64,000 bases of DNA from Chloroflexota bacterium (GTDB lineage Bacteria > Chloroflexota > Anaerolineae > Anaerolineales > Anaerolineaceae): assembly GCA_016887485.1 (NCBI GenBank), contig CP069394.1, positions 1,488,001 through 1,552,000 on the forward strand, written 5' to 3'. The notes beneath the pieces are model-generated. The model ran no database searches, was not told where the DNA came from, and was given only the letters and a program-made list of their open reading frames with translations. Shown here in pieces: positions 2,229-56,577 of this stretch. A program made the position numbers and the translations under genes. Position 1 is the first letter of the stretch; each line of letters starts with the position of its first letter.

Positions 2229-3340
2229 CACCCATCGACGCCACCCCCATCTTTGACGTAAATCAGTCCCTCTGGACGGAGAACCATCAGGCTGCGGGCT
2301 GTCTGCAGTGTGGACGGGTCTATATCGTCCAATCCGATCAACTCGGTCAACTCTGCCCCCTCTGCCGCAAAGGCACACTCGAACCGCAACCCGTGCGGAT
2401 GCGTGCTGCTGAGCCGGAGCAGATCCTGCCCTTCAGGATCAACCAGGCCAATCTGTCCTCGATCTACGCCAATGCCGTCAGCCGGGTCTGGATCAAACCT
2501 GAGGACCTTACGGCGGAATCACTGCTCAGGAACACCCGCCCTGTCTTTTGGCCGCTCTGGCTGGTCGATAGCGACGTTCAGGGCCACTGGCAGATGGAAG
2601 CCGGGTTCGATTACCAGGTGGAAAGCGCCAAGGAATATTACAACGGCGGGCGGTGGCAATCCAGCAAGCAAATTGAAGGCCGGGTCCGCTGGGAGCCAAG
2701 GCTGGGCAGGATTAATACCCATGTTGATAACATCGCCGCTCAGGCACTGGAAGAATATCAGAACCGGCTGCAAATGACTGGCAAATACCCTCTGGAACAA
2801 TCCAGGCCCTATTCACCCGGCATGGAAAGCCAGGCCCTATTGGAAGTGCCGGATTTCCCACCGGAAGATGCCTGGCCCCTGGCCCGACCCGCGGTGGAAA
2901 AAGCGGCGGGTGACGTCTGCCTGAAGGCGGCCGGTGCGCAGCACTTCCGCAATTTCTCGATCAAGGCGGAATACACCAACCTGAATTGGACCCAATTCCT
3001 GCTGCCGCTTTTTGCCACCCATTACACTGATGACGAGGGTGAGAAACAAATCCTGATCGTCAACGGTGTCACCGGAGCGATTCAAGGGCCTCTGCTGGCT
3101 TCACCGAAGCGCGGCGGCAAGATCGCCGGGATCATCGCCGCAGTAGCCGGAGGATTGATCCTGTTGGCCCTGCTGGGTTTTCTGCTAACTCTCGTCCTGC
3201 CGGCTGCCAGCATCATTGCCGGCATTCTGGGCGTTCTCGGCGTGCTGACCGGGATCGGCGCGATCTTCCCTCTCGTACAGCCCCGCCAGTGGAACGCTAA
3301 CCAAACCGGCCCGCGCATCGCCAAAGGACCTAGGTTCTAA
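2225..3340 (+). CDS. Zinc-ribbon membrane protein (paralogue 2)
   Basis: A 371-residue protein whose start is set by the ATGA overlap with the upstream gene. An upstream in-frame extension would lie wholly inside that gene and is rejected. It has one zinc ribbon (Cys26, Cys29, Cys44, Cys47). Its Trp-rich middle (FWPLWLVDSDVQGHW) aligns with that of the preceding gene, and two transmembrane helices follow near residues 285-345. It has lost the second ribbon pair of its partner. Adjacency, overlap and shared architecture suggest the two form a hetero-complex at the membrane, which is inference. No enzymatic motif is visible. Confidence 0.7.
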   Translation: MTPIDATPIFDVNQSLWTENHQAAGCLQCGRVYIVQSDQLGQLCPLCRKGTLEPQPVRMRAAEPEQILPFRINQANLSSIYANAVSRVWIKPEDLTAESLLRNTRPVFWPLWLVDSDVQGHWQMEAGFDYQVESAKEYYNGGRWQSSKQIEGRVRWEPRLGRINTHVDNIAAQALEEYQNRLQMTGKYPLEQSRPYSPGMESQALLEVPDFPPEDAWPLARPAVEKAAGDVCLKAAGAQHFRNFSIKAEYTNLNWTQFLLPLFATHYTDDEGEKQILIVNGVTGAIQGPLLASPKRGGKIAGIIAAVAGGLILLALLGFLLTLVLPAASIIAGILGVLGVLTGIGAIFPLVQPRQWNANQTGPRIAKGPRF

Positions 3341-3341
3341 G

Positions 3342-4112
3342 ATGGAAATGGTTCACCCTGAACAGTTCGACCGGCTGGTCGCTGACGCCCTGGAAGCCCA
3401 TTTCGAGGGTTGGGATTTCTGCTGGCTGGAAGGTCGACTGGTTCAGGAAGATACCCCTTGGGACTATCCTGAAATCGTCCGCTCCCATTTTGTCTCAACC
3501 CAATCCCTGTTGGATCTGGGGACAGGCGGGGGTGAGCTGCTTGCCGACCTAGGCCCCCTGCCAAGTAACACCCACGCCACCGAGGCCTACCCTCCCAACC
3601 AAATCATCGCCCGGCAGCGGCTGGAACCCATGGGCGTCACCGTCCACGCTATCGATGACAAGCCCAACCTGCCTTTCAGCAACGGGCAATTCGATTTGGT
3701 CATCAACCGACACGAGTCTTACGCCCCGGAAGAGATTCACCGCATCCTCAAGCCTGGCGGGCTCTTCATCACCCAACAGGTGGGCGGTCTGGACAATCTT
3801 GAACTGAATCAGACTCTGGAGGACCAACTTTCTTTCCCCTTTCTACATTGGGGACTGGCTGAAGCACTCACAGGGCTATACGAAGCAGGTTTCCAGGTCT
3901 CACGGGCGGAAAAAGCCGCCCTCCGCTCCTCTTTCCGGGATATCGGCGCTGTGGTTTATTACCTCAAGGCAATCCCCTGGCAAATTGAGGGGTTTGACCC
4001 CCAGACCAGCCATGATAAACTGGTCAGGCTGCATAACATCATCGAGCGGCAGGGCGAGTTCGTCGCAACCGCCCACCGCTTCCTGATCATGGCTCAAAAA
4101 GAAGGTGACTGA
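3342..4112 (+). CDS. SAM-dependent class I methyltransferase
   Basis: A 256-residue protein with the Rossmann-type motif I LLDLGTGGGE near residue 60, an acidic residue closing the second strand (TEAYP), a motif near FDLVINRH, and the post-motif LKPGGLFITQQ. This is the layout of class I methyltransferases of the Methyltransf_11/25 type. The substrate cannot be told from sequence. The N-terminal 50 residues (EGWDFCWLEGR) are typical of small-molecule or uncharacterised members. It starts one base after the stop of the zinc-ribbon gene and its own stop overlaps the next start (TGATG), so it is part of the same operon. Confidence 0.8.
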   Translation: MEMVHPEQFDRLVADALEAHFEGWDFCWLEGRLVQEDTPWDYPEIVRSHFVSTQSLLDLGTGGGELLADLGPLPSNTHATEAYPPNQIIARQRLEPMGVTVHAIDDKPNLPFSNGQFDLVINRHESYAPEEIHRILKPGGLFITQQVGGLDNLELNQTLEDQLSFPFLHWGLAEALTGLYEAGFQVSRAEKAALRSSFRDIGAVVYYLKAIPWQIEGFDPQTSHDKLVRLHNIIERQGEFVATAHRFLIMAQKEGD

Positions 4113-4552
4113 TGAAAAGAATGGATTTTTCACTCTCTGAATTTTTCCAAACATTTTCTTTCCTGCTGTTTTTGGCGGGCAGCGTTGTGGCGTTGATCTT
4201 CAACGGCATCGAGCTATCACTATGGCTGATGGCCTTCGCCATGACAGCCTCCCTGCTGACCACAGTCCTGCCCCCGCTGGGCTTCAATTGGCTGAAGCTT
4301 GAAAAGAAAGGTTGCCGAGGCGGCCGGTGGGTAGCATTCGTCCTGCAGGTGATCTCCTGGGGGGCCTATGCCGCTGCCATGTTTTACCGTGTGATGCGGG
4401 ACCCTCTGCACTTCAAATATCTGATCGGCTCTACCCTGTTCCTGTGGGCGCTTTGGCTGCTGATCTTCATTTACAGCCGTCATGCTTGCCAGCCCAAGAC
4501 AGCCGGTGATACACTTAGTGACGATACTGTTCAGATAAAGATTGACAAGTAA
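4112..4552 (+). CDS. Small four-helix membrane protein
   Basis: A 146-residue protein that is mostly hydrophobic, with about four predicted transmembrane helices (near residues 8-28, 32-55, 74-94 and 105-125) and a short polar C-terminus. No family is recognised. Its ATG overlaps the stop codon of the methyltransferase, so it is likely made by coupled translation as the last gene of the 924-4552 operon. The short gap of 24 bases to upp means upp could be co-transcribed. Confidence 0.6.
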   Translation: MKRMDFSLSEFFQTFSFLLFLAGSVVALIFNGIELSLWLMAFAMTASLLTTVLPPLGFNWLKLEKKGCRGGRWVAFVLQVISWGAYAAAMFYRVMRDPLHFKYLIGSTLFLWALWLLIFIYSRHACQPKTAGDTLSDDTVQIKIDK

Positions 4553-34233: not shown

Positions 34234-35562
34234 TCAGGCAGGTGGAAAGACCTGCGGCATGGCATCCGGGGCATATTTCTCCACAATCTCAGATGAAATC
34301 CCGTTCAGCCGGCAAATTTCCGCAAAAAGGTCCACACTGGGACGGCGAATCCGCTTTTGAGTTGCTTCATCCAGCCCCCAAAGACCAAAATGTTGGGTCC
34401 AGCCGCGCTCCCACTCAAAGTTATCCACCAGTGTCCAATGGAAATAACCCCGAACCGGCGCGTTATCATTGATGACCCGCCAGAGCGAGTGTAAATGTTC
34501 GACAAGGTAACGTGGACGTAGTTCATCGGCGGAATCATCCACCCCATTTTCAGTAATGTAGATTGGCTTGCCAAACTGCATCCCCCACCGGACACAAGCC
34601 TCCATGCCCTCCGGCTGGTGAGCGATGAAACCGGTCTCGCTCAACAAGGCGTCTTTCGGAAAACTGCGTTCAACAAACATCTGATCCTTTGCTTTCAGGC
34701 TTAACCGGACCAGGTCATTGGCGTAGTAATTCAATCCGATAAAATCCTGGGTGCCAACGGCCTCTGGGATGCTTTCCTTCTTGATCACCGCGTTGAAGTT
34801 GCCATCCACCAGTGTTTGCGGGAAGAGATTATTAAAGAACTGGTTGAATAGTTTTGCCAGCCAGCGATCGGCGGGGAACCAGGTCGCCGGTTTGAATTGG
34901 CGGTAATGATAGGATGAGCCAACCTGTGCATCCGGTTGGATCTCGTGGATCACGCGGTAGGCGCGGGCATGCGCTATGACCATATGCTTCAGCACCTGAT
35001 AAGCCGCTTTGATATCCTTCTTGCCTGGTGGGAACAAACCCACAAGATAGGCGCTAAGGGCAAACACTTCGGGCTCGTTAATCGTCACCCAGAGGTTGCA
35101 ATAGGGCGAAAGGGCTTCCACTGCCTTTTCCGTGAATTTAATAAAGTGGTCGATGATGTCAGGATTCTCCCAACCCCCCATTTCGGCCACCCAGAGCGGC
35201 TCGCTGAAGTGGTGCAGGGTGACCATCGGAACCATCCCCCGGTTTTTCAGCCCAGTCAGCATCTCCCGGTAATAATCCAGAGCCGTCTCATCCCAGCGAT
35301 CTGGTGCGGGTTGAATGCGGCTCCAGGCAATGGATAGGCGATGAGCATTCTGAAAAGTGGTTTGCGCCCGGTCAAAATCCTCCCGCCAGCGGCCTCCCCA
35401 CCAGTCACATTCCAGGCCGGACCGCTGACCTTCCATAATTCGACCTTCTTCCTGCTCCCAGGCCGACCAGGTGTTATTGGGATTGCGGCCCTCCACCTGC
35501 GCAGCAGCGGTTGCTGCTCCCCAGAGGAAACCTTCTGGAAAATAATAAGTGCCTTCAGGCAT
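34234..35562 (-). CDS. Glycoside hydrolase family 1 (beta-glucosidase-type)
   Basis: A 442-residue retaining beta-glycosidase, (beta/alpha)8 fold. The acid/base is Glu163 in TINEPE and the nucleophile is Glu338 in YITENG. GFLWGAATAAAQVEG at the N-terminus and the C-terminal FEWERGWTQHFGL are typical of GH1. It probably cleaves beta-glucosides or related sugars, in the cytoplasm since no signal is seen. The ATG at 35562 is preferred to an in-frame GTG four codons upstream. It stands next to, but is not part of, the phage-derived island that begins at 35.7 kb. Confidence 0.94.
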   Translation of the reverse strand: MPEGTYYFPEGFLWGAATAAAQVEGRNPNNTWSAWEQEEGRIMEGQRSGLECDWWGGRWREDFDRAQTTFQNAHRLSIAWSRIQPAPDRWDETALDYYREMLTGLKNRGMVPMVTLHHFSEPLWVAEMGGWENPDIIDHFIKFTEKAVEALSPYCNLWVTINEPEVFALSAYLVGLFPPGKKDIKAAYQVLKHMVIAHARAYRVIHEIQPDAQVGSSYHYRQFKPATWFPADRWLAKLFNQFFNNLFPQTLVDGNFNAVIKKESIPEAVGTQDFIGLNYYANDLVRLSLKAKDQMFVERSFPKDALLSETGFIAHQPEGMEACVRWGMQFGKPIYITENGVDDSADELRPRYLVEHLHSLWRVINDNAPVRGYFHWTLVDNFEWERGWTQHFGLWGLDEATQKRIRRPSVDLFAEICRLNGISSEIVEKYAPDAMPQVFPPA

Positions 35563-35664
35563 AATGAACTTCACTCCTGATCACATTCATTAACTGTGTT
35601 TGAACGCTATAAATCATAACGTATTTTAGGAAGGCGGGAAAGGTAAAAAAGTATGCGGAACCAA

Positions 35665-35686
35665 AAGCGCTCCCTAAGGAGCGCCT
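35665..35686 (-). terminator. Terminator at the end of the packaging island
   Basis: The stem GCGCTCC-CTAA-GGAGCGC lies 28 bases after the last gene of the island. On the minus strand it is followed by TTTTGG, a short T run. It marks the likely 3' end of the island transcript. Confidence 0.65.
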
Positions 35687-35711
35687 GTATGTCCCAGCTA
35701 TCGTCATTTGA

Positions 35712-37268
35712 TTAACCAAACCCACCCTCTCCATCCAATGTACGGATTTCAAGATTGCCGGTTTGGGGCCAATATTCTGCCCCTGCAATGAAACAAGCCG
35801 GCAGCCGTTTTTTATCCCAGGGCAGATTGATCCGGCTTGCACCGGAGAAACGAGCAAACCGCCCCACCGGCGGCCGCCAGCGAGTCAATGGCACGCCTTC
35901 CCGGGTATAGAACTGGCTGAACTGATCCATATACACGTCCACTTCATCAGGATCAGGTTGTTCATAAAAGCGCAGATGCCGGTTAGACGTGACCTGCGCC
36001 AAAACCAACCGTTGATTTGCCGTCCCCAGAACCATCAACTTCCTGATCTCCTCCAGACAGGTCAGCCCATCCTTACGATATGGAGAAGCACCAACGCCGG
36101 TCAGCGCCGCTGTGATCTTTGGGAAGAACTGCCCGCCGGAACCGGCTATCGCCAATAACTGCTCCGATGTGTCCGTAACGCACACCAGTCGGAAGTAGAC
36201 ATCCGGGCGATCAGTTGGTGGGAAGAGTTCCCAGCTATTAGTGGATTGATTGTAATAACGTCCCACACCACCTTTAAAATTCATACTCTCATCTATCCGG
36301 AGGATGAAATATTCTGAGCTGTTCACCCCATCCGGATCCAGAGAAATCCAATAACGTTCCCCAGCTATGAGGGGATAGGGTGTTGAAAACACGAAATTTG
36401 CCCAGGTATACCCATTCTCCACCAGGTCCACCGGGTTGAAAGGCTCACTGGTTGCCAGTACAGCCCCGGGATACCAGTCATTGTTCGCATGCAAGCGTGC
36501 CGTCAGCGTGCGGGTTGCACCCCCAACATTCCGCACCAAAAAACTTGCCATTTTTAAAGCACAATTTATTTCGGGTGTGAAAGATTGACCAACGTATTTC
36601 GCGCTCGTGTAACGGCCAAAGGTAAATGACCCCGGACCAGGACCATAATTCGCATAAAACCCTTCCAACTGGGTATAGGGCTGCCATCCCAAGGTTTTGA
36701 ACCACCCCGCACAGATCAGCCTGCCCTGCACTGGGCCGTTATCCTTTCGCTGGGTCAAGCGAGAGACTGGCCTGGCATGCTGCTCGAGCCAGGTGTCCCG
36801 TAAGGCCTCAGCGTGAGGAGAATCAATGTTGGTCTTTCGCAGCAATTTCGTCTTGATCCCATAATCCACCTGTGAGCGCAGGTCTTCAGCCACATCCGTC
36901 AGGTTGCGATCCCCGGGTAACGTAGCCGGGGATGTGTAATCATATTGAACACTGACCTGATTAGCGAGGTCTTCCAGAGATACTCTAACCTCCACTTCTT
37001 CAAGCTCCACCTGCACTTCCTCAATATACCCCCACCAGACCGGTTCTCCCTGTCCGTCACGAACGGTGACACCACAGCGCAGCAGGTTCACCAAATCCAG
37101 CAACTCATCTTTTGGCCCATCAACCAGCAATTCCGCCTTTTCCGGCCCGCCAAATGCAGACCAGGTCAGGTGAATCGGTCTGACCGGCAGCCTGAGGTGT
37201 ATCGGCTGGGTAAAATCCCGTTGAAGGATTTCGGTCGTAAAAACGTCTGAATCATTCATGTTTGTCAT
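35712..37268 (-). CDS. Phage-type tail-associated structural protein with jelly-roll domain
   Basis: A 518-residue protein, last gene of the island. The N-terminal 130 residues, with short strands and IHLTWSAFGG and WWGYIEEVQVEL, are like tail baseplate or hub proteins. The middle (about 235-380) has FGRYTSAKYVGQSFTPE, VENGYTWANFVF, AGERYWISLDPDG, with the pattern of the choice-of-anchor R or a carbohydrate-binding jelly roll. The C-terminus has more tail-like strands. A role in adsorption or tail-tip formation is inferred from position. The ATG at 37268 has AAGGAGG. An in-frame start 31 codons upstream overlaps the previous gene. Confidence 0.55.
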   Translation of the reverse strand: MTNMNDSDVFTTEILQRDFTQPIHLRLPVRPIHLTWSAFGGPEKAELLVDGPKDELLDLVNLLRCGVTVRDGQGEPVWWGYIEEVQVELEEVEVRVSLEDLANQVSVQYDYTSPATLPGDRNLTDVAEDLRSQVDYGIKTKLLRKTNIDSPHAEALRDTWLEQHARPVSRLTQRKDNGPVQGRLICAGWFKTLGWQPYTQLEGFYANYGPGPGSFTFGRYTSAKYVGQSFTPEINCALKMASFLVRNVGGATRTLTARLHANNDWYPGAVLATSEPFNPVDLVENGYTWANFVFSTPYPLIAGERYWISLDPDGVNSSEYFILRIDESMNFKGGVGRYYNQSTNSWELFPPTDRPDVYFRLVCVTDTSEQLLAIAGSGGQFFPKITAALTGVGASPYRKDGLTCLEEIRKLMVLGTANQRLVLAQVTSNRHLRFYEQPDPDEVDVYMDQFSQFYTREGVPLTRWRPPVGRFARFSGASRINLPWDKKRLPACFIAGAEYWPQTGNLEIRTLDGEGGFG

Positions 37269-37281
37269 CCTGCCTCCTTCA

Positions 37282-38628
37282 CTAAAGAATCCGTTTTCGG
37301 GGCCGGTAATACAACCGTAGATTGAACGTCCGGAAGATGTCCATCTCATTATTCTCATCAACCACCATCACAAACAGCCGATGGTAATGACCAGGAAAAA
37401 GAGTCAAAGGCGCACCCTGCCGGATATGCGCCACAATCTCTTCATCATTGGAAGAAAAATTAGCGGTATGCCGGTTGAGGAAATTTTCATCAAGCAATCT
37501 TCCATCTTCATAGATCTCATAGAAAGCCAGAAAATTCGCGCCGGGTTCCAGGGGCAAAAAGGTCAGGCAGTCAAAGTCAATCGTGTAGGCGGCGTCTGTT
37601 TCATGTAAGCCATACAGGAACAGATCCAGCGGATGAGGTTGGGTTTCATTCAACAGCTTATTGGGTGGGATCTGTATCGGTGGAAATAACACATATCCAT
37701 AATCAGGATCCACATAGACACTCTCACCTTCCCAGAGCATTTTCAACCCGGATTGAATATTAAGCCGTAGATAAAGATCCTCATTTGCCGGCATGTTGTA
37801 AAAACGCAGCACCGGACGGAAGGATAAGCCTGCCATTTTCTTAACCCTGTCACTATCGAAATACCAGCCACCCAGGGGTTTCCATTCCGTCTCAGACCAG
37901 GTGACTCGAAGATACCGTTCATTGACGCCATCCGGTACGCTCAACGCCGTGCCCCCGGAGAAATCCCCCGCATAACAAAACAGCTTTCTCTCCGCCAGGG
38001 CCTCCGGATGATGGTAAATCCCCACAAAGGCATCGTGCAGGACACCAGCCTCGTTGGTGTTGATCAATTCCAAACGCAGTGGGGCGGGCAGATCCGTGTT
38101 GAAGTCGCCAGGCTTGATCAGAACGCTATTAACGTGACCGCTGTGGGCATCGGTATGGTTGATCAGATCCGCCCCGCCCAGGACATCCTCAACACTGCCC
38201 ACGGTTAACGGCAGCTCCACAGGATCAGCGTCGTAATGGTTCGCCCGAGTGAAGTGCAATGTCAGCAGCAATGACCCCGTGAGACGGGTTTGGGGGCTGT
38301 CGGGGTTCGCCTGGATCTCAAGAGTGTTCAGCAGGCAGTAATAATAGCCATCGCCTGCCGTCATCTGGAACCTGAGACACTGCGGCGCCGGGTAGCCGGT
38401 CTGGTGATAGAGCAGATTACGCTGCCGGATCGTCTCCAATGCCGCCACACCTTCGGCTAGTTCATTCGGCGTCCCTTCCAGGCTCAACTGGATCGTCTCA
38501 GCCACCTCCTCCCCCGTCCCAAACACAGGCTGATAATCCGCCTGTTTAAACGGGGCGATGATTCCCTCGCCATGAAGCACCAGCCATTCCCCAATGGGAT
38601 CGTAACTGCCAATCGCAATCTGGTTCAT
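37282..38628 (-). CDS. Phage tail-like structural protein
   Basis: A 448-residue protein rich in beta strands, with an N-terminal segment (IGSYDPIGEWLVLHGEGIIAP, cited in part) and LRFQMTAGDGYYYCLL that resemble distal-tail or tail-tube-related folds. No catalytic motif is present. The assignment rests mainly on being between the head-tail genes and the tail-tip-like gene. Its ATG at 38628 overlaps the stop of the upstream gene (ATGA), and GGAGGAG precedes it. Confidence 0.5.
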   Translation of the reverse strand: MNQIAIGSYDPIGEWLVLHGEGIIAPFKQADYQPVFGTGEEVAETIQLSLEGTPNELAEGVAALETIRQRNLLYHQTGYPAPQCLRFQMTAGDGYYYCLLNTLEIQANPDSPQTRLTGSLLLTLHFTRANHYDADPVELPLTVGSVEDVLGGADLINHTDAHSGHVNSVLIKPGDFNTDLPAPLRLELINTNEAGVLHDAFVGIYHHPEALAERKLFCYAGDFSGGTALSVPDGVNERYLRVTWSETEWKPLGGWYFDSDRVKKMAGLSFRPVLRFYNMPANEDLYLRLNIQSGLKMLWEGESVYVDPDYGYVLFPPIQIPPNKLLNETQPHPLDLFLYGLHETDAAYTIDFDCLTFLPLEPGANFLAFYEIYEDGRLLDENFLNRHTANFSSNDEEIVAHIRQGAPLTLFPGHYHRLFVMVVDENNEMDIFRTFNLRLYYRPRKRIL

Positions 38629-39044
38629 TCGTTCTCCTCCCACTCCCAGTTATCATATGGAACCGTTGCCGCCTTCTGATGGGTGGCGGCTTTGACCTCC
38701 CCCAGCATCACCTGAAAGCGAGCCATATGGGCCGAGGCCCAGGATGCCATGGCGTCCGGCAGGTCTTCCCGAGCGCGGGCATCATCAAACCGCCCAGTAG
38801 CGCGCAGGGTAAGCCCATAGGCCACCGCCCCCACCACCAGCACATGCTGATGATCGTCATCTAAATTGGTGACGGCCGCGCCGTCCAGCCCTTCCAAAGT
38901 CAGGGATTCATCCAACACCCGCCCAATTGCCAGCAGGGCCGATCGGATGGCCGATTCCAACAAAGCATCGCTCCAGATCAACTTGCCGGTGTCGTTCAGG
39001 TGGGCGCTCACCTTTGTTTTGATATCCGAAAGGGTCAGGCTCAT
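38625..39044 (-). CDS. Phage head-tail connector-like protein
   Basis: A 139-residue protein, mostly helical, with ALLESAIRSALLAIGRVL, VGAVAYGLTLRATGRFDDA and WASAHMARFQVMLGE. The length and helical layout match gp6-like head-tail connector proteins, and it sits where connectors do, after the capsid gene in transcription order. The match is weak. It overlaps the preceding gene by 4 bases and the next by 4 bases, so it is tightly coupled. Confidence 0.5.
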   Translation of the reverse strand: MSLTLSDIKTKVSAHLNDTGKLIWSDALLESAIRSALLAIGRVLDESLTLEGLDGAAVTNLDDDHQHVLVVGAVAYGLTLRATGRFDDARAREDLPDAMASWASAHMARFQVMLGEVKAATHQKAATVPYDNWEWEENE

Positions 39045-39232
39045 TTGATCCCCTCCACTTTCTGCTTCTCAACAGCCTTGCGCACTTCCGCCGCCGTGAA
39101 AACAACCTTGCGCCCCTCCGGGCCGATCACCACCAGGGTGCCATCTACGCGCTGAAGATAATCCAGGGGGGTGCCGCCCACCAAGGCAGCGGCTACTTTC
39201 TCAATCGGGTTCGTTTTCCTGCGTGCCATCAT
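39041..39232 (-). CDS. Small hypothetical island protein
   Basis: A 63-residue basic protein (RRKTNPIEKVAAALVGG, VFTAAEVRKAVEKQKVEG) with an AAGGAGG element before tandem ATG codons. It overlaps the next gene by 4 bases. It is short and has no recognised family, but the coupling and position support it as a real island gene. Confidence 0.5.
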   Translation of the reverse strand: MMARRKTNPIEKVAAALVGGTPLDYLQRVDGTLVVIGPEGRKVVFTAAEVRKAVEKQKVEGIK

Positions 39233-39290
39233 GCCTCCTTTTCATCAACCGGCTCCCCTGTGAACGGAGAGCCGGTTCCATTTATTTCTT

Positions 39291-39482
39291 CTAGGCAGCC
39301 CTACTCAGGCCGTCTTCAATCCCCGTGCCAAGGATATAAGCCACCAGCACATAGATCACAGCGGTGAGTTGTTCCTCAGCCAGCGGGAAATCCGGCTGCC
39401 AGGCCTTAACAATCACCAGAGCCAGGCCAATCAATGCCGCCCAGAACTTGCGGCTGCCAAGTAGTTGTTTGAATTTTTCCAT
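39291..39482 (-). CDS. Holin-like small membrane protein
   Basis: A 63-residue protein with two hydrophobic helices (about 10-28 and 38-58) and a short charged C-terminus. This is the size and layout of a class II holin, and a GH25 endolysin lies in the same island. Holins open the membrane so the endolysin can reach the wall. The function is inferred from size, topology and context. Confidence 0.6.
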   Translation of the reverse strand: MEKFKQLLGSRKFWAALIGLALVIVKAWQPDFPLAEEQLTAVIYVLVAYILGTGIEDGLSRAA

Positions 39483-39583
39483 CAGACCCTCCCAGGTTGA
39501 TTTTCTTTATTGCGGACCTGCCCCACCCGATGGCAAAGCAGGTCCCATCGAAGGAGAAAAATATGAAGCTAATCCAGCTATGA

Positions 39584-41521
39584 TCAGGCCGGCACGTTAT
39601 TCTTGTGCAGCGGGCGGAAATCGTTCACCCAAACAGCCAAATAGTGCCGGACTTTCAAGCGGTGTTCATCGTTCATGAAGACCGCCGGGCTGAGTTCATC
39701 GCCTGCCACATAGATCTCAGGCAAGATCCCGAACCGCTCACCGACATAAACTGCCGGAGCAATCACCGGGTCACAAACAGCGGCCCAGTCATCGGCATCC
39801 GTCCATTCCGGAACCAACACCGGCACTGCAGTACCCTTGAGGATGTTGTCATAGACATAATCCTGCTCCCGCACAAATTCACCTTGCAGGATCTGGAAAG
39901 CCGTCTTTTGCAAACTGCGGGACACCAGCAAATACTTGGGATTGACGGCCATCTTTGGGCCGGTGCCATAATAGGTGGCGGCATTCTTGATCAGCATCGG
40001 CTGGTTATAAACCGCGCCACATACGGCATCCCATTCATCCGCAGTGAGCGCTCCGGTGCGCAGGTTGGCATGCCCGCCCGCGGTTGTGACCGCAGTGGCG
40101 TTGAACAAGGCGCTGGTATCGGCCATGGTGGGGCCAACGCCAGCATTGGCTGTGAAGATCTGGCTGACCAGCTTGGAGATTTTGCGTAAACCAGCCGAAG
40201 CCAGCTCACGGGCATAGGCCTTCAGCTTGCGGGTCTCATCCCGATCGATCAGTTCCAGCGTGAGGGGAATATAGCCGCCATATTTGACGAAGCTGGCCGT
40301 CTCAGGTGAATCACCCACCACCAATTCAGTATAGGTTCCGCCCTCAGCCACAGTCGGCAGGTCACCCACCGTCCCAACCAGGGTACCGGTGATGTCATTG
40401 AGTGTGTTGAAGTGTTCGGTGACGGCGATCTGCTGCCACCAGTTGTAGCCTGCCCGTCCCAGGGCATCCCAGGTATTCACCACCAGCTTATTCAACGCAT
40501 TCTTCACCAAACCCGTGAAGTCCGCGGTGGTCGCCAACTGCGCCCGGTTAGGATGGTAACCGCCGTGCAGGTCTGTGTCACCGGTCAGCGTCAGATAGAG
40601 CTCACGGATGCCCGAAAGGCGTGCCACCGAAAGGTTTTGCTGGCTAGCATCCCGGGGGACGCCAAAGAGGTCATCCACAGCCGTCTGCAGCCGCTCTTCC
40701 GAGGTCACCATGCCAGTGATTCGGCCGGGTCCGGCCACTGCAGCAGGCCCGGTCAGCTCCGTGACCATTTGCCGGGCGTCCTCAATCGCCTGCTTGAGCT
40801 GCTCTCCCTCAAAAACCTGCCCATCAAACTGCTTGCGTACCCGATCCGAGACGGGTTTGGGCAGTCTGGCCGCGGCCAAAGCCGAATCCAGCAAATAACC
40901 GCACATCTGCGCCCGCACATCCTGCGTGGTCCCTGTTCCTGTCGTCCCATTTACCCCTGTCGGCATGCCGGCGGTGGGGTCTTTCACTTGCTCATTCATT
41001 TGATATCCTCCATTTTGTTCCTGTTTGTTAAGTTGATTCAATTGACGTAAAAAAGCGCCGCCCCTTGCCGGGTCATAGACCAAATCCACCGAGAAAACCT
41101 TGATGATCTTCTCCACCCGGCGATTCCTGCCCGCAAAGAGCACATCAGCCGAAAAACCGATTTTGTTCACGGCAGTCTCACCCCCCGCAAGCAGTTCCTC
41201 ACCCAGCGCGGTCAGTACCGGACCGCCGGGGCCAAATGCCATCAGAATGGCGCTGATTCCCTGCTGGGCTTCATTCCAGACCGCTTCCCGCAGCACCCCG
41301 CCGATATCCCGCACGGAACGCACGGTTCGGTCATGGTCAATAAAACAGGTCGCCCCTTCCCAAAGTGCCAGGCTAGCCTGTAAAACTTCCGGCGGGAAGA
41401 ACCAACCATTGCCCTCCCCGGCCGTGATCGCCAGCACTTCAAACTTGCCGGGTGAGACTGGTTTAGCGCTGGCTTCCAAAGTCAGGCGGATTTCCTCCTT
41501 TCCCTTCATCCGTTCACTCAT
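39584..41521 (-). CDS. Prohead protease-major capsid fusion
   Basis: A 645-residue protein combining two functions. Residues about 1-165 look like a prohead protease of the S78/U35 type, with His63 in FIDHDRTVRSVRDIGG and Ser124 in NKIGFSADV. Residues about 260-645 look like an HK97-fold major capsid protein (LVGTVGDLPTVAEGGTYTEL, LTLELIDRDETRKL). Between them is a Gly/Thr-rich and helical segment that may act as a scaffold. Codon 175 (ATG at 40999) has GGAGG 8 bases upstream, so a 471-residue capsid-only form is likely. The start at 41521 overlaps the portal gene by 8 bases. Confidence 0.75.
   Translation of the reverse strand: MSERMKGKEEIRLTLEASAKPVSPGKFEVLAITAGEGNGWFFPPEVLQASLALWEGATCFIDHDRTVRSVRDIGGVLREAVWNEAQQGISAILMAFGPGGPVLTALGEELLAGGETAVNKIGFSADVLFAGRNRRVEKIIKVFSVDLVYDPARGGAFLRQLNQLNKQEQNGGYQMNEQVKDPTAGMPTGVNGTTGTGTTQDVRAQMCGYLLDSALAAARLPKPVSDRVRKQFDGQVFEGEQLKQAIEDARQMVTELTGPAAVAGPGRITGMVTSEERLQTAVDDLFGVPRDASQQNLSVARLSGIRELYLTLTGDTDLHGGYHPNRAQLATTADFTGLVKNALNKLVVNTWDALGRAGYNWWQQIAVTEHFNTLNDITGTLVGTVGDLPTVAEGGTYTELVVGDSPETASFVKYGGYIPLTLELIDRDETRKLKAYARELASAGLRKISKLVSQIFTANAGVGPTMADTSALFNATAVTTAGGHANLRTGALTADEWDAVCGAVYNQPMLIKNAATYYGTGPKMAVNPKYLLVSRSLQKTAFQILQGEFVREQDYVYDNILKGTAVPVLVPEWTDADDWAAVCDPVIAPAVYVGERFGILPEIYVAGDELSPAVFMNDEHRLKVRHYLAVWVNDFRPLHKNNVPA
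40999..41011 (-). promoter_or_regulatory. Internal ribosome binding site in the protease-capsid gene
   Basis: On the minus strand, TGGAGGATATCAAATG lies in frame inside the gene. It has near-ideal spacing for re-initiation at ATG 40999 and would make the scaffold-capsid part alone. This is seen in the sequence; the use of the site is inference. Confidence 0.6.
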
Positions 41522-42842
41522 CTTCACGCTCCTTTCCGGGGGCCTCAGGTGTCCCTGCCCGTTCCAACAGGGCATCCAGGTCCACCTCTTCCCCCACAAA
41601 TCGATAGACCACCCGCAGATACTCCCGGGCATCTATCAAACCGGCCTGATAAAGCCCCTCAAACAGCGGTCCGATCTTGCCCCCCGATTCAGCCAGATCC
41701 ACATTATCCCGAGCGGTAATATCCGCACCATGCACGGTGATGACTGCACCTGCATCCACCTGTCCATCCACCAGTGACCGCCGCTGCAGAACGACACCCA
41801 GCAGGTCTTTCAACATCCAGAGGAAAAATCGCTGGCGCTGTTCAAACTTGCGGTGGGTCGGTGAACCGGCAGCCTCCGCTGTGGTCCGGGTGGCGCTTTC
41901 GGGCTCCGCCAAAAAGTGCATCGGTACGCCCGCCCCCGCCGCGATCATCTTCTTGAGCGCCAGGCCATCGGTCTGGGCGTCCAGCGCTTCCAGCTTGGGT
42001 GAGATCACCGACCAATCCTCGCTCTCATCGGTCACCAGGATTGACCCCGGTGAAGGTGGATTGGCGGCCAGTTCCAGTTGGCGGGTGCGGCGGGCGGTCT
42101 CTGAGGTGAAGGCTGCTTTAACCCGGTAGATAAAGGCGTTGCGGAAGTGATTCAGCCGCATCCGATCCTCCAGCCAGGCTGCATACCGCCGCAGCCAGAT
42201 CAACAGCGGCGCCAAATCCGATTCCCCCCACTGCGCCCCGGCAGGTCGGTTAACGGCATAATGCAGCATCACCGCCGGGAAGGTACCTCCCTCGCCCAAG
42301 CCGTCCCCAGCAGCGTCATAAGCCGGGTAGACCTGTCCATCCTTATCTGCAAAGGCCAGTGATTGTTCAATATCATTCTCAGCCGAATCGATCCGGTCAA
42401 TATCCGCTGCTGGCACCACCCGCAGGTAGGACATCCCCACCCGGTCGGTGGAGATCAACAGGAAAAGGTTCCCCGAGCGGGTCAGCTCATCACAGAGCTC
42501 CACCATCCTTATCGCCATCCGGTTGAGCGGGTGCGACCAGAAGGCCCGCAGGAACTCCTGTGAAGGGGTATGGCCGCACTCAATATCCACCCCGCCACCA
42601 ACCACATATTCGCTGGTCAACTCCACTAACCGCCGGGCCAGAGGATCACTCCGCCAGGCATCCAAACAAGCTTCCAACACGGTCTCGCGGTCCGGGTTCA
42701 ACCGGTCACGGGGGGAATCATCCAGCCGGCGCACCCCCACTAAAAAAGTATTGTCATCCTCGATCACAGCTAGCCTTTCCCGCACAGTCCGGTCCACCAG
42801 GGGCTGGAACCAGCGGCTAAACAATCGTTCTGCCAGTGACAT
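41514..42842 (-). CDS. Phage portal protein
   Basis: A 442-residue protein of HK97/lambda portal type. It has the N-terminal SLAERLFSRWFQPLVDR, the middle ELCDELTRSGNLFLLIS, a clip region near DIDRIDS, and the helical wing-stem pattern LRLNHFRNAFIYRVKA with AGVPMHFLAEPESATRTTAEAAG. The portal forms a dodecamer at one vertex and lets DNA in. AAGGAGG precedes the ATG at 42842. It lies between the endolysin and protease-capsid genes, and its end overlaps the latter by 8 bases. Confidence 0.8.
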   Translation of the reverse strand: MSLAERLFSRWFQPLVDRTVRERLAVIEDDNTFLVGVRRLDDSPRDRLNPDRETVLEACLDAWRSDPLARRLVELTSEYVVGGGVDIECGHTPSQEFLRAFWSHPLNRMAIRMVELCDELTRSGNLFLLISTDRVGMSYLRVVPAADIDRIDSAENDIEQSLAFADKDGQVYPAYDAAGDGLGEGGTFPAVMLHYAVNRPAGAQWGESDLAPLLIWLRRYAAWLEDRMRLNHFRNAFIYRVKAAFTSETARRTRQLELAANPPSPGSILVTDESEDWSVISPKLEALDAQTDGLALKKMIAAGAGVPMHFLAEPESATRTTAEAAGSPTHRKFEQRQRFFLWMLKDLLGVVLQRRSLVDGQVDAGAVITVHGADITARDNVDLAESGGKIGPLFEGLYQAGLIDAREYLRVVYRFVGEEVDLDALLERAGTPEAPGKEREDE

Positions 42843-42843
42843 T

Positions 42844-43620
42844 TCATAACCTCCTTTCTTCGTTCTCTCGTAAGTCAATTGAATGAACCGGGCAGACCTG
42901 CTGATCCAACGGGCAGATCACCGTCTGAGGTGCTTCGTCCCCGATAAAAGCCGCCAGGTCCGCCTCGGTCCCGTTCCAGCGGTTATAGTCCATGTAATGC
43001 GCGGCTTCCGCCCCAATCGAAGCCCCGCGGGCTGCCGTCTGGTGGATCAGCCAATCCGCAACCCCCTGCGGCAGAGCCGGTGGGCAGGGATGCTCCGGTG
43101 TATAGAGCGGATAGGGCCAGGGCCAGCGATACTGCGCCAGCCACCAGTGCACCTCCGGCAGGTCGGCCACCCGCAGGTATTGATCCACCCATCCCGCCCG
43201 TGAATAGAGCACAGGGGTGCGCCCGCTGCGTTTCTGCATGATCCGGCAGGCTTCGGCAGTGGTGGCTGTGATCCTGGCAGGCGAAAAGCCGTGATCCAGC
43301 TCCAAATCCAGCACCAGAGGGATCCGGTTTAGATTGGCGTCCCCCAGAATGCGGAAGAAATTATCCATCTGCGCCTCCGCCGATTCGCCTGGGTAAAGCA
43401 CATGGTAGGCCAGGCGTGCCCTGCCAATCCGTCCTGCTTCGGTAAAGTAAGTGCTGAACCAGGGGTCCTGATAACCCCAGGAAATCCCCGCCCGCATGGC
43501 AATGAAGGCCACCCGGGGTTCATGGACCGCGATCCGGTCAAAATCGACCTGAATCTTGCCGTCCGGGGATGTGTTGTAACGGGATAAGTCAATCCCAAAT
43601 GCGAATATCTCATTTGCCAT
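42844..43620 (-). CDS. GH25 lysozyme-type endolysin
   Basis: A 258-residue muramidase of glycoside hydrolase family 25. The active-site Asp is in FGIDLSRYN and the acid-base region in LDLELDHG. WLAQYRWPWPYPLY and WLIHQTAARG complete the fold. It cleaves the N-acetylmuramic acid-N-acetylglucosamine bond in peptidoglycan. There is no signal peptide, so export needs the holin-like protein. A short Cys-containing tail follows the catalytic domain. Its place between terminase and portal is unusual, as lysis genes usually lie after the tail genes. Confidence 0.86.
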   Translation of the reverse strand: MANEIFAFGIDLSRYNTSPDGKIQVDFDRIAVHEPRVAFIAMRAGISWGYQDPWFSTYFTEAGRIGRARLAYHVLYPGESAEAQMDNFFRILGDANLNRIPLVLDLELDHGFSPARITATTAEACRIMQKRSGRTPVLYSRAGWVDQYLRVADLPEVHWWLAQYRWPWPYPLYTPEHPCPPALPQGVADWLIHQTAARGASIGAEAAHYMDYNRWNGTEADLAAFIGDEAPQTVICPLDQQVCPVHSIDLRENEERRL

Positions 43621-43713
43621 CAATAAATCTCCTAATCAAACAACCCATATCAACCCCACTCCGCTTACGCTTCAGGGGTTCCGCTTCGCTCCACCCCAAA
43701 TGCCATTTCATCA

Positions 43714-45246
43714 TTAACCACGGTCAATCTCCTTGAGTGGGTCCTGTCCGGGGATCATCAACCCAGGCAGGTGGATCTGCCAGTTTTCTTCATCCAGCAC
43801 CGCACAAAGGCTGGCGCTGATCAACAAATCGTCGTGCACCAATTCACCGTCCCCAGGGTCCCGAGTGCCATCCGGCACGCCCCATTTCAGGTGCTTATCC
43901 GGCCCCGGCTGAACGGTGTATTGGCAAAAAGAGGCTTCCCGGTAAAACTTGCGGGCCAAACGAGCTTGTTCACCCAGGTCCTCATCCGGGCAGGCATAAT
44001 CCCGGAAGCGGCCTGAATCAACCACTGCCAGAAATCCCCAGCCCAGTTGCGACTTGGTCTTGGCGGAAAAGATAAAGGGGTTCACCTTGCCCGGCAGCGC
44101 CTTATCGAGAAAAGCCGTCAACCCCGCGCCCACCCCGGTGGCATCCACCACCAGGCGGGATATCCGCCAGGTCTCCGCCAGCGCCCGAATTTGACTGAAC
44201 AGGGCAGTGTGCGACAACCCCACCCACAGCCTCCTGTGAACCACCCGGTAGGTCGGCAGGTTTTGGTTGATCCCATCCGGGCTGCCCGGCTGAACCGCCA
44301 CAATCGTGAGCGCCGTTGCATCCCGGCCCGGGTTAGAAAGCCCACTGCCTATCAAATCCTGCGCAGCTTCATCCGCCCCGGCCACATCCAGCAGCATGAC
44401 ATAAGTTTCTCCTGGCTGGGGCAAGGCCTCAGGCGGGTGAACGCCCTGCATCAAGGCCTGGCGTTCCGGGGTAAAAAGTCCTCCCTCGGCGTCGATCTCT
44501 TCGCAGTAATACTGAGTGCGCACCATTGGATGATTCCGGCCCAGACGCTCAAGCACCTGCTGCAGGTGCTTCCCATAAGCCGGCACCTCAGTGATCACCT
44601 GATCCGCCGAGAGGTGAAACACCCGCCGGATGCCATCCCGCGCCTCGGCAGACATCGCTGTGCGTAATTCTCTCGCCAGCAATGTCCGGCTGGTCCAGGC
44701 CGTGCCCCAAAAGACCGTTGTGGCATTGGTGCTGGCAACCATCGGCGAAATCTCTTTGTCAAACTTCTCAATTTGGATATCCTGCGCCTCATCCACCGAG
44801 AGCAGTGCCGAAGCCGTCGCCCCAACGATATTGGTGGTCGGCGAACCGGAGAGGAAAACCACCCGCGCCCGCCCCACCTGGTAAATATGTCCAAAGTGCT
44901 TCTGCCAGCGGTCCCGCACGATCAGGTTATTGCTCAACACCTCTTCCAGCCGCCGCATGGCATTTTCAGTTTGCGGCTTCCAGGTTGGTGAGATCTGCAC
45001 GATCTCATTGCGCTCGCCGGAAAGCAAGGTCAGCAAATAGGCCTGGACCTGCGCCTGGAGCTCATTCTTCCCCGATTGTCGGGGAAAGATCACCACAAAA
45101 TTCAACCCCTTGTGATGCACCACCGAATTGACAATCGCTCGGGCTGCCTCTTCCTGGTAATGGCGCAGCTTCAGGCCGCTGGCATAGCGCACGAAGAGCA
45201 CAATATCCCGCAGCAATTTTTTGAGTAACTCCACCAATGTGGTCAT
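43714..45246 (-). CDS. Terminase large subunit
   Basis: A 510-residue packaging motor. Walker A is PRQSGK (55-60). Walker B is LLSVDE (Asp152, Glu153). The C-terminal nuclease domain has Asp287 in MLLDVAG, Asp368 in LVVDATG and a late Asp in VHDDLLIS. This matches RNase-H-like terminase nucleases. It drives DNA into proheads with the portal. No frameshift or missing catalytic residue is seen, so it appears functional. It follows the coiled-coil gene by one base. Confidence 0.9.
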   Translation of the reverse strand: MTTLVELLKKLLRDIVLFVRYASGLKLRHYQEEAARAIVNSVVHHKGLNFVVIFPRQSGKNELQAQVQAYLLTLLSGERNEIVQISPTWKPQTENAMRRLEEVLSNNLIVRDRWQKHFGHIYQVGRARVVFLSGSPTTNIVGATASALLSVDEAQDIQIEKFDKEISPMVASTNATTVFWGTAWTSRTLLARELRTAMSAEARDGIRRVFHLSADQVITEVPAYGKHLQQVLERLGRNHPMVRTQYYCEEIDAEGGLFTPERQALMQGVHPPEALPQPGETYVMLLDVAGADEAAQDLIGSGLSNPGRDATALTIVAVQPGSPDGINQNLPTYRVVHRRLWVGLSHTALFSQIRALAETWRISRLVVDATGVGAGLTAFLDKALPGKVNPFIFSAKTKSQLGWGFLAVVDSGRFRDYACPDEDLGEQARLARKFYREASFCQYTVQPGPDKHLKWGVPDGTRDPGDGELVHDDLLISASLCAVLDEENWQIHLPGLMIPGQDPLKEIDRG

Positions 45247-45247
45247 C

Positions 45248-45526
45248 CTAACCCCCCAGAAATGCCCGCAGGATTGCTACCAGCGACATCAACCCAGACC
45301 CGCCACTGGAAAGCGCAGAGACCAGCTTGAATTGGGTCACGCCCTCGGTAGCTGCTCGGATGCGGGTTTCGTGGTCGCGGATTTCTTCCTCCAGTGCAGC
45401 CAGCCGCTGGTTGTTCAGCGCCTGTTGGTGGGCCAGCCGGGCCTCCAGGGCGTTCACCCGGGCCTGAATGAGGGCATTTGCATGCCGCAATTGTTCAGTC
45501 AACAAGGCAACGTCCTTCTCATCCAT
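45248..45526 (-). CDS. Coiled-coil protein with hydrophobic C-terminus
   Basis: A 92-residue protein with a long heptad-repeat coiled coil (residues 5-60, LEARLAHQQALNNQRLAALEE, shown in part) and a hydrophobic C-terminal tail (LVSALSSGGSGLMSLVAILRAFL). This is like phage XhlA-type membrane-associated lysis accessory proteins, but it sits beside the terminase. It overlaps the previous gene by 8 bases. The role is inferred. Confidence 0.55.
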   Translation of the reverse strand: MDEKDVALLTEQLRHANALIQARVNALEARLAHQQALNNQRLAALEEEIRDHETRIRAATEGVTQFKLVSALSSGGSGLMSLVAILRAFLGG

Positions 45527-45893
45527 TCTGCTCCCCCTCTCCAGGCCCGGTCAGTCCAGCGCTGCCCATCTCTTCCAGCACAGCCGTCATCGCCCGGGTC
45601 AACGAATCCCCCAGTCCATCCGCTTTCTTATCCTGCAGGCCGTGTTCCGTCTGGATCACTTTCGCCAGCCGAGTCACACTCATGCCCAGCACCCGGAGCA
45701 CATCCGTCATCCTGTCCAGGTCATCGGCTTCATTCGCTGCCCTCTCAAAGAAGCGCCGCATGACCACTCGCAGCATGCCGATCTCCCCCAACAGCGATTC
45801 TCCGAGGGCGCGGTCCAGATCTGCCAATTCGGCCTTGGTGAAATGTTCAACATAGAAACCCGCTTCGTTGCCGGCCTGATTTTTGGCCATCAT
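45519..45893 (-). CDS. First gene of the packaging island
   Basis: A 124-residue protein, mostly helical (FTKAELADLDRALGESL, GEIGMLRVVMRRFFERA, DLDRMTDVLRVLGMSVTRLA). Its place just upstream of the large terminase suggests a small terminase subunit or regulator, but no DNA-binding motif is certain. The start is set at 45893, where GGGAGGTGG precedes tandem ATG codons. An in-frame ATG at 46013 lies within the operator palindrome and has no binding site, so it is rejected. The promoter and operator lie 110-165 bases upstream. Confidence 0.55.
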   Translation of the reverse strand: MMAKNQAGNEAGFYVEHFTKAELADLDRALGESLLGEIGMLRVVMRRFFERAANEADDLDRMTDVLRVLGMSVTRLAKVIQTEHGLQDKKADGLGDSLTRAMTAVLEEMGSAGLTGPGEGEQNG

Positions 45894-46002
45894 CAGAATG
45901 CCACCTCCCAAATCTTTGATGAAGAGATCGGGCTGCCGGGTGAACGCAAAGCGCAGCAAAGGAATATTTGGGTCAAGACTTTCGTTACCCGGCCAACCCT
46001 GT

Positions 46003-46058
46003 TTAGAACACATGTTCTAAGTTGTTCTAACTTTATCATTCGAATTGGGACTTTTCAA
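46003..46058 (-). promoter_or_regulatory. Island promoter with GAAC-N4-GTTC operator
   Basis: On the minus strand TTGAAA (46053-46058) and TAAAGT (46030-46035) are 17 bases apart. Directly downstream is the palindrome TTAGAACACATGTTCTAA (46003-46020, plus-strand sense), which has GAAC-ACAT-GTTC at its core, and a further half-site GTTCTAA (46024-46030). The core fits the GAAC-N4-GTTC form of LexA boxes in Bacillus and related bacteria. It matches the operator at 56.53 kb in sequence and in position. Confidence 0.65.
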
Positions 46059-56064: not shown

Positions 56065-56469
56065 TCACACCTCCGGCCGGAAAAGCCCCAGCGCGACCGC
56101 CCGGGCCACCAGCTGCTGGATATTCTGCGCCTCCAGCCGCGCTTTCATATTCGCCACATAACCGCGGATCGTGCGCGGGCTGAGCCCCAACGCGATCGCA
56201 ATCTGTGCGGTTGTCATCCCTTCCCCCAACAGCACCAACACCTGCTGTTCCCGCGGGCTAAGCTTGGGCAGGTCCGCCTTCGGTTCAGCCTCGCTGTGAG
56301 TCACCACCACAATGCTCCCCTGCTGATGGGCAAAAAGCGGCCCATGTTCACCGGGCAGGTATTCTTCCCAGCGTCCCTGATTGACGGCCCGGACGATCCG
56401 CTCAGGTGGCGCATCAACATCCAATACCCTAAATGCGTCCGGTTCATTAAAAACTAATACGCTTGCCAT
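56065..56469 (-). CDS. Small LuxR-type regulator with damage-type operator
   Basis: A 134-residue protein. The C-terminal 65 residues are a LuxR-type helix-turn-helix (LSPREQQVLVLLGEGMTTAQI, then ALGLSPRTIRGYVANMKAR). The N-terminal part (MASVLVFNEPDAFRVL, WEEYLPGEHGPLF) is short, with no receiver domain, so it is not a classical response regulator. It may be a stand-alone transcription factor. GGAGG lies before the ATG at 56469. An in-frame start at 56508 lacks a binding site. Its promoter has a GAAC-N4-GTTC operator like the phage island's. Confidence 0.75.
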   Translation of the reverse strand: MASVLVFNEPDAFRVLDVDAPPERIVRAVNQGRWEEYLPGEHGPLFAHQQGSIVVVTHSEAEPKADLPKLSPREQQVLVLLGEGMTTAQIAIALGLSPRTIRGYVANMKARLEAQNIQQLVARAVALGLFRPEV

Positions 56470-56520
56470 CAATGGCAACCTCCTGAATGCCATTCCCTTT
56501 GCTGCCAATGCAATCTGAAG

Positions 56521-56577
56521 CGTTCTATAGATAGAACGTATGTTCTAATCTTACGTGAAGTATGGGTTCTTTGTCAA
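56521..56577 (-). promoter_or_regulatory. LuxR-gene promoter with paired operators
   Basis: On the minus strand TTGACA (56572-56577) and TAAGAT (56548-56553) are 18 bases apart. Directly downstream is TAGAACGTATGTTCTA (56532-56547), with GAAC-GTAT-GTTC in the core. A second inverted repeat CGTTCTATAGATAGAACG (56521-56538) overlaps it. The first box has the same form and position as the one in front of the phage-derived island. Confidence 0.7.

Follow-up and report, generated by a model that had tools for sequence, protein, structure and literature searches.

The analyzed window is a stretch of 64,000 nucleotides of a Chloroflexota bacterium (GCA_016887485.1, contig CP069394.1, positions 1,488,001 to 1,552,000), in which 11 open reading frames, all uninterrupted and all on the minus strand, occupy positions 35712-45890. 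They comprise a TerS-like protein, TerL, a GH25 endolysin, a portal protein, a protease-capsid fusion, a holin, an adaptor-like protein, two tail-position proteins and two small proteins. The gene starts were revised from the sequence and from homologues. The composing features, together with a candidate regulator further along the window, are the following:

46030..46058, minus strand: candidate sigma-70-type promoter (TTGAAA, 17 nt, TAAAGT), with only 9 of 12 consensus matches
46004..46019: operator-like perfect palindrome TAGAACATGTGTTCTA, just downstream of the -10 element
45519..45890, minus strand: gene A, small-terminase-like protein (123 aa), start revised
45248..45526, minus strand: gene B (92 aa), coiled-coil-like with a hydrophobic C-terminus, possible holin accessory (XhlA-like, tentative)
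43714..45246, minus strand: large terminase TerL (510 aa), ATPase and nuclease residues intact
42844..43620, minus strand: GH25 muramidase endolysin
41514..42842, minus strand: portal protein
39584..41521, minus strand: fused prohead protease and HK97-type major capsid protein (645 aa)
39291..39482, minus strand: holin (63 aa)
39041..39232, minus strand: gene F, small protein (63 aa)
38625..39044, minus strand: head-tail adaptor-like protein
37282..38628, minus strand: T1, tail-position protein (448 aa), unknown fold
35712..37268, minus strand: T2, tail-position protein (518 aa)
35665..35686, minus strand: terminator hairpin
56532..56547: palindrome of the same kind (TAGAACGTATGTTCTA), 24 bp upstream of the LuxR-type gene
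56065..56508, minus strand: small LuxR/GerE-type regulator (147 aa; PF00196, E 2e-15), candidate partner regulator

Family scans of 10 of the 11 ORFs (all but gene F) gave matches for the portal (phrog_10963, E 3e-33), the capsid (PF25209, E 9e-25), the head-maturation protease-capsid (phrog_133, E 6e-23), GH25 (PF01183, E 4.5e-18), TerL (phrog_5909, E 3e-7) and the holin (phrog_9987, E 3e-6). The adaptor-like protein only gives a weak match to the SU10 adaptor (PF24175, E 0.008), below its cut-off, although its homologue in one of the other loci (L053) matches phrog_399 (structural, E 0.002). Genes A and B and the two tail-position proteins have no solid match. The homologues of gene A start at the same position, and some of them carry a GNxNAxKHGFYS motif that is likely typical of phage small terminases, while for gene B a match to phrog_1193 (hemolysin, E 0.14) is marginal. 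The first gene most likely starts at 45890 and not at 46013; the ATG at 46013 lies inside the palindrome. An internal ATG with a ribosome-site-like stretch is located near 40999 in the protease-capsid gene. No integrase, replication or repressor gene was matched among the 10 ORFs scanned, and no direct repeats flank the island between 33000 and 48500. These results confirm the observation of the earlier note, except for its claim that most genes are coupled by overlaps of 4-8 bases: such overlaps exist at only 4 of 10 junctions (A/B, portal/capsid, F/adaptor and adaptor/T1), whereas the others are gaps of 1-101 bases. The terminator hairpin lies in a 46-nt stretch that folds at -24.1 kcal/mol (z -5.0) and runs into TTTT. 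A generic scan of the region yielded 10 terminator-like sites (shuffles 11.0) and 9 promoter-like sites (shuffles 5.8, sd 2.3) and thus proves little.

Next, we analyzed the distribution of the cluster. TerL is present in 103 of 147 genomes of the host family, Anaerolineaceae (57 of 64 high-quality ones), spanning 29 of 40 sampled genera, and 87 of the 103 give a single match row. As the portal-family profile PF04860 missed the portal of the window, profiles were built from homologues instead. Of 42 family rows (40 loci fetched from the 103 TerL-positive genomes, locus L031 and the window; one genome is included twice), TerL was found in 42, A in 41, portal in 40, capsid in 38 and adaptor in 38. 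Gene F was found by profile in 31 of 62 rows, and an endolysin was not identified in every family locus. The gene order TerS-like, (B), TerL, portal, protease-capsid, holin, F, adaptor and tail pair is conserved, with the endolysin in varying places. Nonetheless, some loci are internally deleted or rearranged: L039 (a portal-T1 fusion, with no capsid found), L044, L047, L049, L334 and L339. Stops, which were surveyed for TerL only, occur in three match rows, in the genomes G126 and G080 and in a weak second match in G013. Seven of the 64 high-quality family genomes lack TerL, and at least 19 genomes of other families of the order, the only ones listed of that order, have none, so that presence elsewhere in the class needs losses or transfers. 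Of 20 class loci outside the family, only 5 have a portal or capsid match.

Within the family, the trees of the packaging genes follow the ribosomal tree. The number of splits shared with the latter is 22 of 33 for the concatenate, 23 of 37 for TerL, 20 of 35 for the portal and 20 of 33 for the capsid, compared to means of 0.23-0.32 after label shuffling (0.29 for the concatenate), with a maximum of 3 in 1000. Mantel correlations range from 0.66 to 0.76 (0.757 for the concatenate), with 0 of 999 permutations as high. Note that the 36 ribosomal-region ORF families behind the host tree were picked by conservation and may include overlapping non-coding frames. The cluster lies in a 2.7-Mb contig, and its flanking host genes are shared between genera, in two groups. 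The sampled genes are under purifying selection (dN/dS 0.02-0.37 where finite, across 7 genome pairs, with many dS values near or above 1). In TerL, Walker A G59 and K60, Walker B E153 and the nuclease residues D287, D368, D472 and D473 are identical in 63 of 63 rows (the window is counted twice and the 20 class loci are included), and D152 is identical in 62 of 63. In 50,697 phage records, the best TerL match is 32.1% and the best portal match 27.7% identical. Three distant phages (Bacillus vB_BboS-125, Microcystis Mae-JY22 and Caudovirus D_HF5_3) show TerL, portal or capsid matches and no T1 or T2 match in the stretches read.

A tail function of T1, T2 and the proteins c11 and c12 rests on position. 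Two different tail modules occur, and in neither version could we recognize a tail-tube or tape-measure gene, which leads us to expect a short tail. Two-sequence AlphaFold models of T1 and T2 were unusable (mean pLDDT 37 and 31, respectively). Profile searches against the PDB gave no hit for T1 and only hits at E 0.02 or worse, to unrelated proteins, for T2, the adaptor and A. PHROG scans gave a single T1 member at E 0.07, whereas for T2, phrog_877 and phrog_5986 were each matched in 4 of 23 members, as was DUF4082.

A feature not noted before is the palindrome, TAGAAC-N4-GTTCTA or close to it, which lies before the cluster in 40 of 42 family loci. A box with at least 10 of 12 matches occurs within 400 bp upstream in 39 of 41 family loci in addition to the window. 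Over all 61 loci, 43 hits are found in 25.8 kb of upstream sequence against 27 in 1.10 Mb elsewhere, and the 2.9-Mb genome contains three exact copies of TAGAACN4GTTCTA. The box resembles the SOS-type boxes in front of lexA (8 of 8 core bases in 23 of 24 parsed loci, out of 30) and recA (at least 7 of 8 in 20 of 23 parsed loci, out of 30) in the family. The recA boxes represent the best match in a 410-base stretch, for which we estimate about 0.15 chance matches of 7 of 8 per promoter. Yet, the box is not identical to the lexA box. The core is shared in the 7 loci of the window's genus, but flanks and one half-site differ in other genera. TA flanks are present in 72 of 78 cluster half-sites (39 of the 40 boxes, as that of L047 was left out), 21 of 40 at recA and 1 of 46 at lexA, and only 12 of 39 cluster boxes keep GAAC in both half-sites.

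One possibility, which concerns regulation only and is compatible with a gene transfer agent (GTA), is that the box belongs to a dedicated LuxR-type regulator rather than to LexA, with the small GerE protein binding TAGAA-N6-TTCTA at its own gene and at the packaging operon. The box is located directly upstream of the LuxR-type gene in eight genomes (G000, G022, G026, G092, G005, G006, G069 and G141), although the upstream sequences could be parsed for only 11 of 30 loci and other spacings were derived from coordinates. In 16 genomes, a LuxR-type match lies about 4.6-16 kb from TerL on the same contig (27 kb in G026). The differing TA flanks also point in this direction. On the contrary, similar boxes precede a DNA polymerase B operon and a radical SAM-HHH gene in the genome of the window (one mismatch each) and a probable ssb-like gene in G141, which is a DNA-damage-like set, and the recA boxes are intermediate, with one TA-flanked half-site. 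We consider it rather unlikely that the box belongs to the LuxR-type regulator instead of LexA, but both regulators stay open. In this regulon search, the reversed-pattern control gave 0-3 matches per strand and genome against 0-8 for the pattern, so targets seen in a single genome are unproven.

The earlier note proposed a domesticated prophage or a GTA-like particle. Domestication is supported by the distribution, the congruence of gene and host trees, the shared chromosomal flanks, purifying selection, the near-invariant TerL catalytic residues and the conserved operator-like box. With reasonable though not full confidence, we interpret the cluster as a domesticated, vertically inherited remnant of a tailed phage that probably still makes DNA-filled particles, i.e., a probably SOS-induced GTA of independent origin in Anaerolineaceae, compact and perhaps short-tailed. 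In the presumed scenario, DNA damage inactivates LexA (or a small LuxR-type partner acts), the operon is switched on, heads assemble and TerL fills them with chromosomal DNA because no phage genome exists, after which holin and endolysin lyse the producer and the particles deliver the DNA to relatives. Packaging and transfer of host DNA are inferred, and no particle, packaged DNA, transcription or transfer was seen. With regard to the definition of GTAs in PMC9662315, the cluster encodes caudoviricete-derived particle proteins, is fully endogenized in the host genome and is mostly vertically inherited, co-diversifying with the host within the family.

A more far-reaching reading is possible but somewhat less likely than not: an ancient GTA lineage, independent of all described ones, may be wired into the SOS regulon of this Chloroflexota family together with a dedicated LuxR-type regulator, a repair polymerase and other genes, forming a DNA-damage-triggered program in which dying cells package and share their chromosomes through a minimal, tube-less particle with swappable tail ends. 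A GTA encoded in a single 10-kb operon behind an SOS-like box would bear on whether GTAs serve DNA repair by exchange and on how little is needed to build a DNA-delivering particle. It would also suggest that fragments of such loci are filed as viruses in public collections.

Other explanations appear less likely. The cluster may encode a domesticated SOS-induced particle that kills or lyses but does not transfer genes, similar to PBSX, so that host DNA is packaged or degraded, producers lyse, and competitors are harmed or public goods are released. The SOS-like box, the retained lysis genes and the two different tail modules, as expected of a changing target range, agree with this unlikely alternative, and PBSX packages host DNA of 13.4 kb (PMC12946183). 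However, no contractile tail genes were recognized in the island, and the almost invariant nuclease and ATPase residues of TerL suggest that packaging itself is selected. It is also improbable that the cluster is part of a complete prophage or of a split GTA with its tail tube and tape measure elsewhere in the genome. GTAs can indeed be split over loci (PMC12946183, PMC9662315), and the genome of the window was not scanned for tail families. Yet, among the genes read behind the shared box in 12 genomes (67 loci, not all listed boxes), no tail genes were recognized, the only phage genes seen being the cluster itself, a TerS-like gene on another contig of G141 and a portal in G036. A decaying prophage or capsid-forming satellite inherited by chance is very unlikely. 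While the internal deletions in some lineages would fit, the presence across the family, co-diversification, purifying selection and the absence of flanking repeats and of a recognized integrase (among the ORFs scanned) disagree with it.

Among known systems, FpGTA of Faecalibacterium is a compact precedent (PMC12946183). It also has an anaerobic host and a compact operon (10.5 kb) with a TerS-like protein, TerL, portal and capsid, is judged podovirus-like, and forms particles of about 40 nm with 8.4-8.9 kb of host DNA. FpGTA has a second 5.5-kb operon for baseplate, fiber and lysis genes, while here lysis and tail-position genes sit in the one operon. In addition, FpGTA particles came from spontaneous late stationary-phase lysis, while here an SOS-type box is predicted. 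The independent origin proposed above does not rest on a sequence comparison with FpGTA or RcGTA. In the literature searched, judged by title and start of abstract, we saw no GTA of Chloroflexi/Chloroflexota. RcGTA and other alphaproteobacterial type I GTAs (Rhodogtaviriformidae) share vertical inheritance congruent with the host, a packaging module without replication or integration, and host regulation, but occur in a different host phylum and involve the GafA activator. VSH-1/BhGTA of Brachyspira is a GTA from outside Proteobacteria as well, and the cluster described here would add to the evidence that GTAs arise repeatedly outside that phylum.

We identified 11 uninterrupted minus-strand ORFs in the packaging cluster, which is located on the main contig of a 2.9-Mb genome. 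Family scans of 10 of them identify TerL, a GH25 endolysin, a portal, a protease-capsid fusion and a holin, and weakly an SU10-type adaptor, while the proteins named A, B, T1 and T2 have no solid match. Overlaps occur at 4 of 10 gene junctions. A strong hairpin closes the operon, a weak promoter match opens it, and no direct repeats flank it. The positions discussed in the following paragraphs are:
34234-35574: GH1 glucosidase gene next to T2
35665-46058, minus strand: packaging cluster of 11 ORFs
40999: ribosome-site-like stretch and ATG inside the protease-capsid ORF
45890, minus strand: most likely start of the first gene
46004-46019: palindrome TAGAACATGTGTTCTA, just after the -10 element
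The first gene most likely begins at 45890 because its homologues start there and the alternative ATG at 46013 lies inside the palindrome. Given the ATG near 40999, the capsid may also be made separately.

TerL is found in 103 of the 147 genomes of the family, in 57 of the 64 high-quality ones and in 29 of 40 genera. The best match per genome is 41-86% identical (own genome aside), and 87 of the 103 genomes give one match row, while several of the rest represent one gene in pieces. In a class-wide sample, TerL occurs in 54 of 396 genomes, 10 of which belong to the family. No genome of another family of the same order is among these 54, and at least 19 such genomes have no match. The genus includes Anaerolineaceae bacterium WOFB10, of which contig WOYY01000048.1 has the length of contig 35 of the family genome G022 and holds the cluster. 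Among 50,697 phage records the best TerL match is 32.1% and the best portal match 27.7% identical. Seven IMG/VR contigs of 4-16 kb (L291-L297) with 42-57% TerL matches show parts of the same A/B/TerL/portal/capsid order, and these are likely host fragments that have been filed as viral, which is an inference. The genomes of genus g9 (G041, G046 and G047) give up to 10 divergent TerL match rows each (best about 41-43% identical, some rows being pieces of one gene). The three stretches that were read here (L335-L337) hold neither the upstream box nor other cluster genes, and possibly represent phages or another element.

To compare the architecture of the cluster, 40 family loci and 20 class loci were fetched in addition to the family locus L031, and profiles were built from the window genes. 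In 42 family rows (including the window and a second copy in genome G146), TerL is found in 42, A in 41, the portal in 40, the capsid in 38 and the adaptor in 38. Two tail modules follow the adaptor: either T1 and T2, each detected in 22 of the 41 fetched family loci and in the window (locus L039 has part of T1 fused to the portal), or the ORF families c12-c11, with c11 in 15 and c12 in 14 loci. Loci L037, L047 and L049 have neither. As we recognized no tube or tape-measure gene in either tail module, a short tail is inferred. What appears from its sequence to be an M23-like peptidase stands in for GH25 in L046, L047, L049 and L062, whereas in some loci, for example L048, L050, L060 and L061, no endolysin was identified. 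Of the 20 class loci, the portal was found in L088, L089 and L090 and the capsid in L083, L084 and L089.

We then analyzed whether the cluster has been inherited together with the host chromosome. Trees of concatenated TerL-portal-capsid share 22 of 33 splits with a tree of 36 ORF families from the ribosomal operon region, compared to 23 of 37 for TerL alone, 20 of 35 for the portal and 20 of 33 for the capsid, while shuffled labels share 0.23-0.32 on average and at most 3. Flanking genes are shared in two groups and not at one site family-wide. The GH1 glucosidase next to T2 in the window is in that place in loci of genera g1 (L034-L036, L039) and g26 (L052, L065, L066, L068), though it was not called in L031. 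Another set of neighbors (ORF families c21, c22 and c27) is shared by loci of g4, g23, g21, g24 and g40, and lies on the other side in L059. In five genera (L042, L043, L045, L051, L059, L069), the cluster sits beside genes that may encode TadE/TadG-like pilus proteins. The dN/dS ratio is 0.02-0.37 wherever it was finite, over seven genome pairs, with many dS values near or above 1. The motor and nuclease residues of TerL are invariant in 63 rows except for one Walker B Asp to Asn.

Nonetheless, the cluster can be lost. Genomes G025 and G028 (98 and 95% complete, same genus) have no TerL match. G025 keeps its box and a LuxR-type match with one stop inside, with no cluster gene in the 20 kb read. 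The best LuxR-type match also has one stop inside in G018 and G062, and as TerL had no match in two of these three genomes (G025, G062), this hints at joint decay. Genome G029 (locus L334 on contig 8) keeps A, B and TerL, followed by a T2 fragment and the downstream neighbors c14-c15-c16, which looks like an internal deletion at the same site. Loci L039 (G023) and L339 (G104) show single ORFs that join portal with T1 and TerL with c11. These observations speak against an essential function.

The palindrome at 46004-46019 conforms to TAGAACN4GTTCTA, which occurs exactly three times in the genome. A box of at least 10 of 12 matches lies within 400 bp upstream of the cluster in 39 of 41 family loci, the exceptions being L051 and L073, and over all 61 loci there are 43 hits in 25.8 kb of upstream sequence against 27 in 1.10 Mb of the rest. 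With a stricter cut (11 of 12, 1.2 kb upstream of TerL), 31 of 41 family and 8 of 20 class loci have it, against 9 hits in 1.05 Mb of background. In the same family, lexA carries GAAC-N4-GTTC with all eight core bases in 23 of 24 parsed promoters, and recA carries at least seven of eight in 20 of 23. The flanks differ, however, with TA in 72 of 78 cluster half-sites, in 21 of 40 at recA and in 1 of 46 at lexA. The cluster box is thus SOS-like, but a second regulator is possible.

A search of 12 genomes for TAGAACN5TTCTA, in which genes within 300 bp of boxes were read in 67 loci, shows recurring families behind the box. Besides the packaging cluster, these comprise small LuxR/GerE regulators; a hydrophobic protein of about 250 aa in eight genomes; a protein of about 190 aa in four, which in the own genome precedes a DNA polymerase B gene; radical SAM-HHH proteins in G000 and G107; a possible P-loop protein in three; and a transglycosylase-like protein in three. 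The own-genome polymerase, radical SAM and P-loop boxes have one mismatch. The polymerase box lies before a small protein followed by the DNA polymerase B gene (positions 1234-4330 of the fetched locus L283), a probable SOS operon. The hydrophobic protein (L134, L245, L249 and others) is uncharacterized and contains an FNFSTTDFALxDLLG-like stretch, and two of its members had no Pfam match. The window's own LuxR-type gene, 10 kb from the cluster, has the box 24 bp upstream.

The most likely working of the cluster starts with DNA damage and loss of repression, followed by head assembly, terminase packaging of chromosomal DNA, lysis and delivery. While the sequence demonstrates an intact and selected packaging operon behind a conserved box, the steps of induction, packaging, lysis and delivery are inferred. 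Three of the six GTA features listed in PMC9662315 are observed here, namely phage-derived proteins, endogenization and vertical co-diversification. As the other three require experiments, we do not consider the cluster a proven GTA; it looks and most likely works like one. No GTA of this kind in Chloroflexota was found in the literature searched, and the closest described case that we found is FpGTA of Faecalibacterium (PMC12946183).
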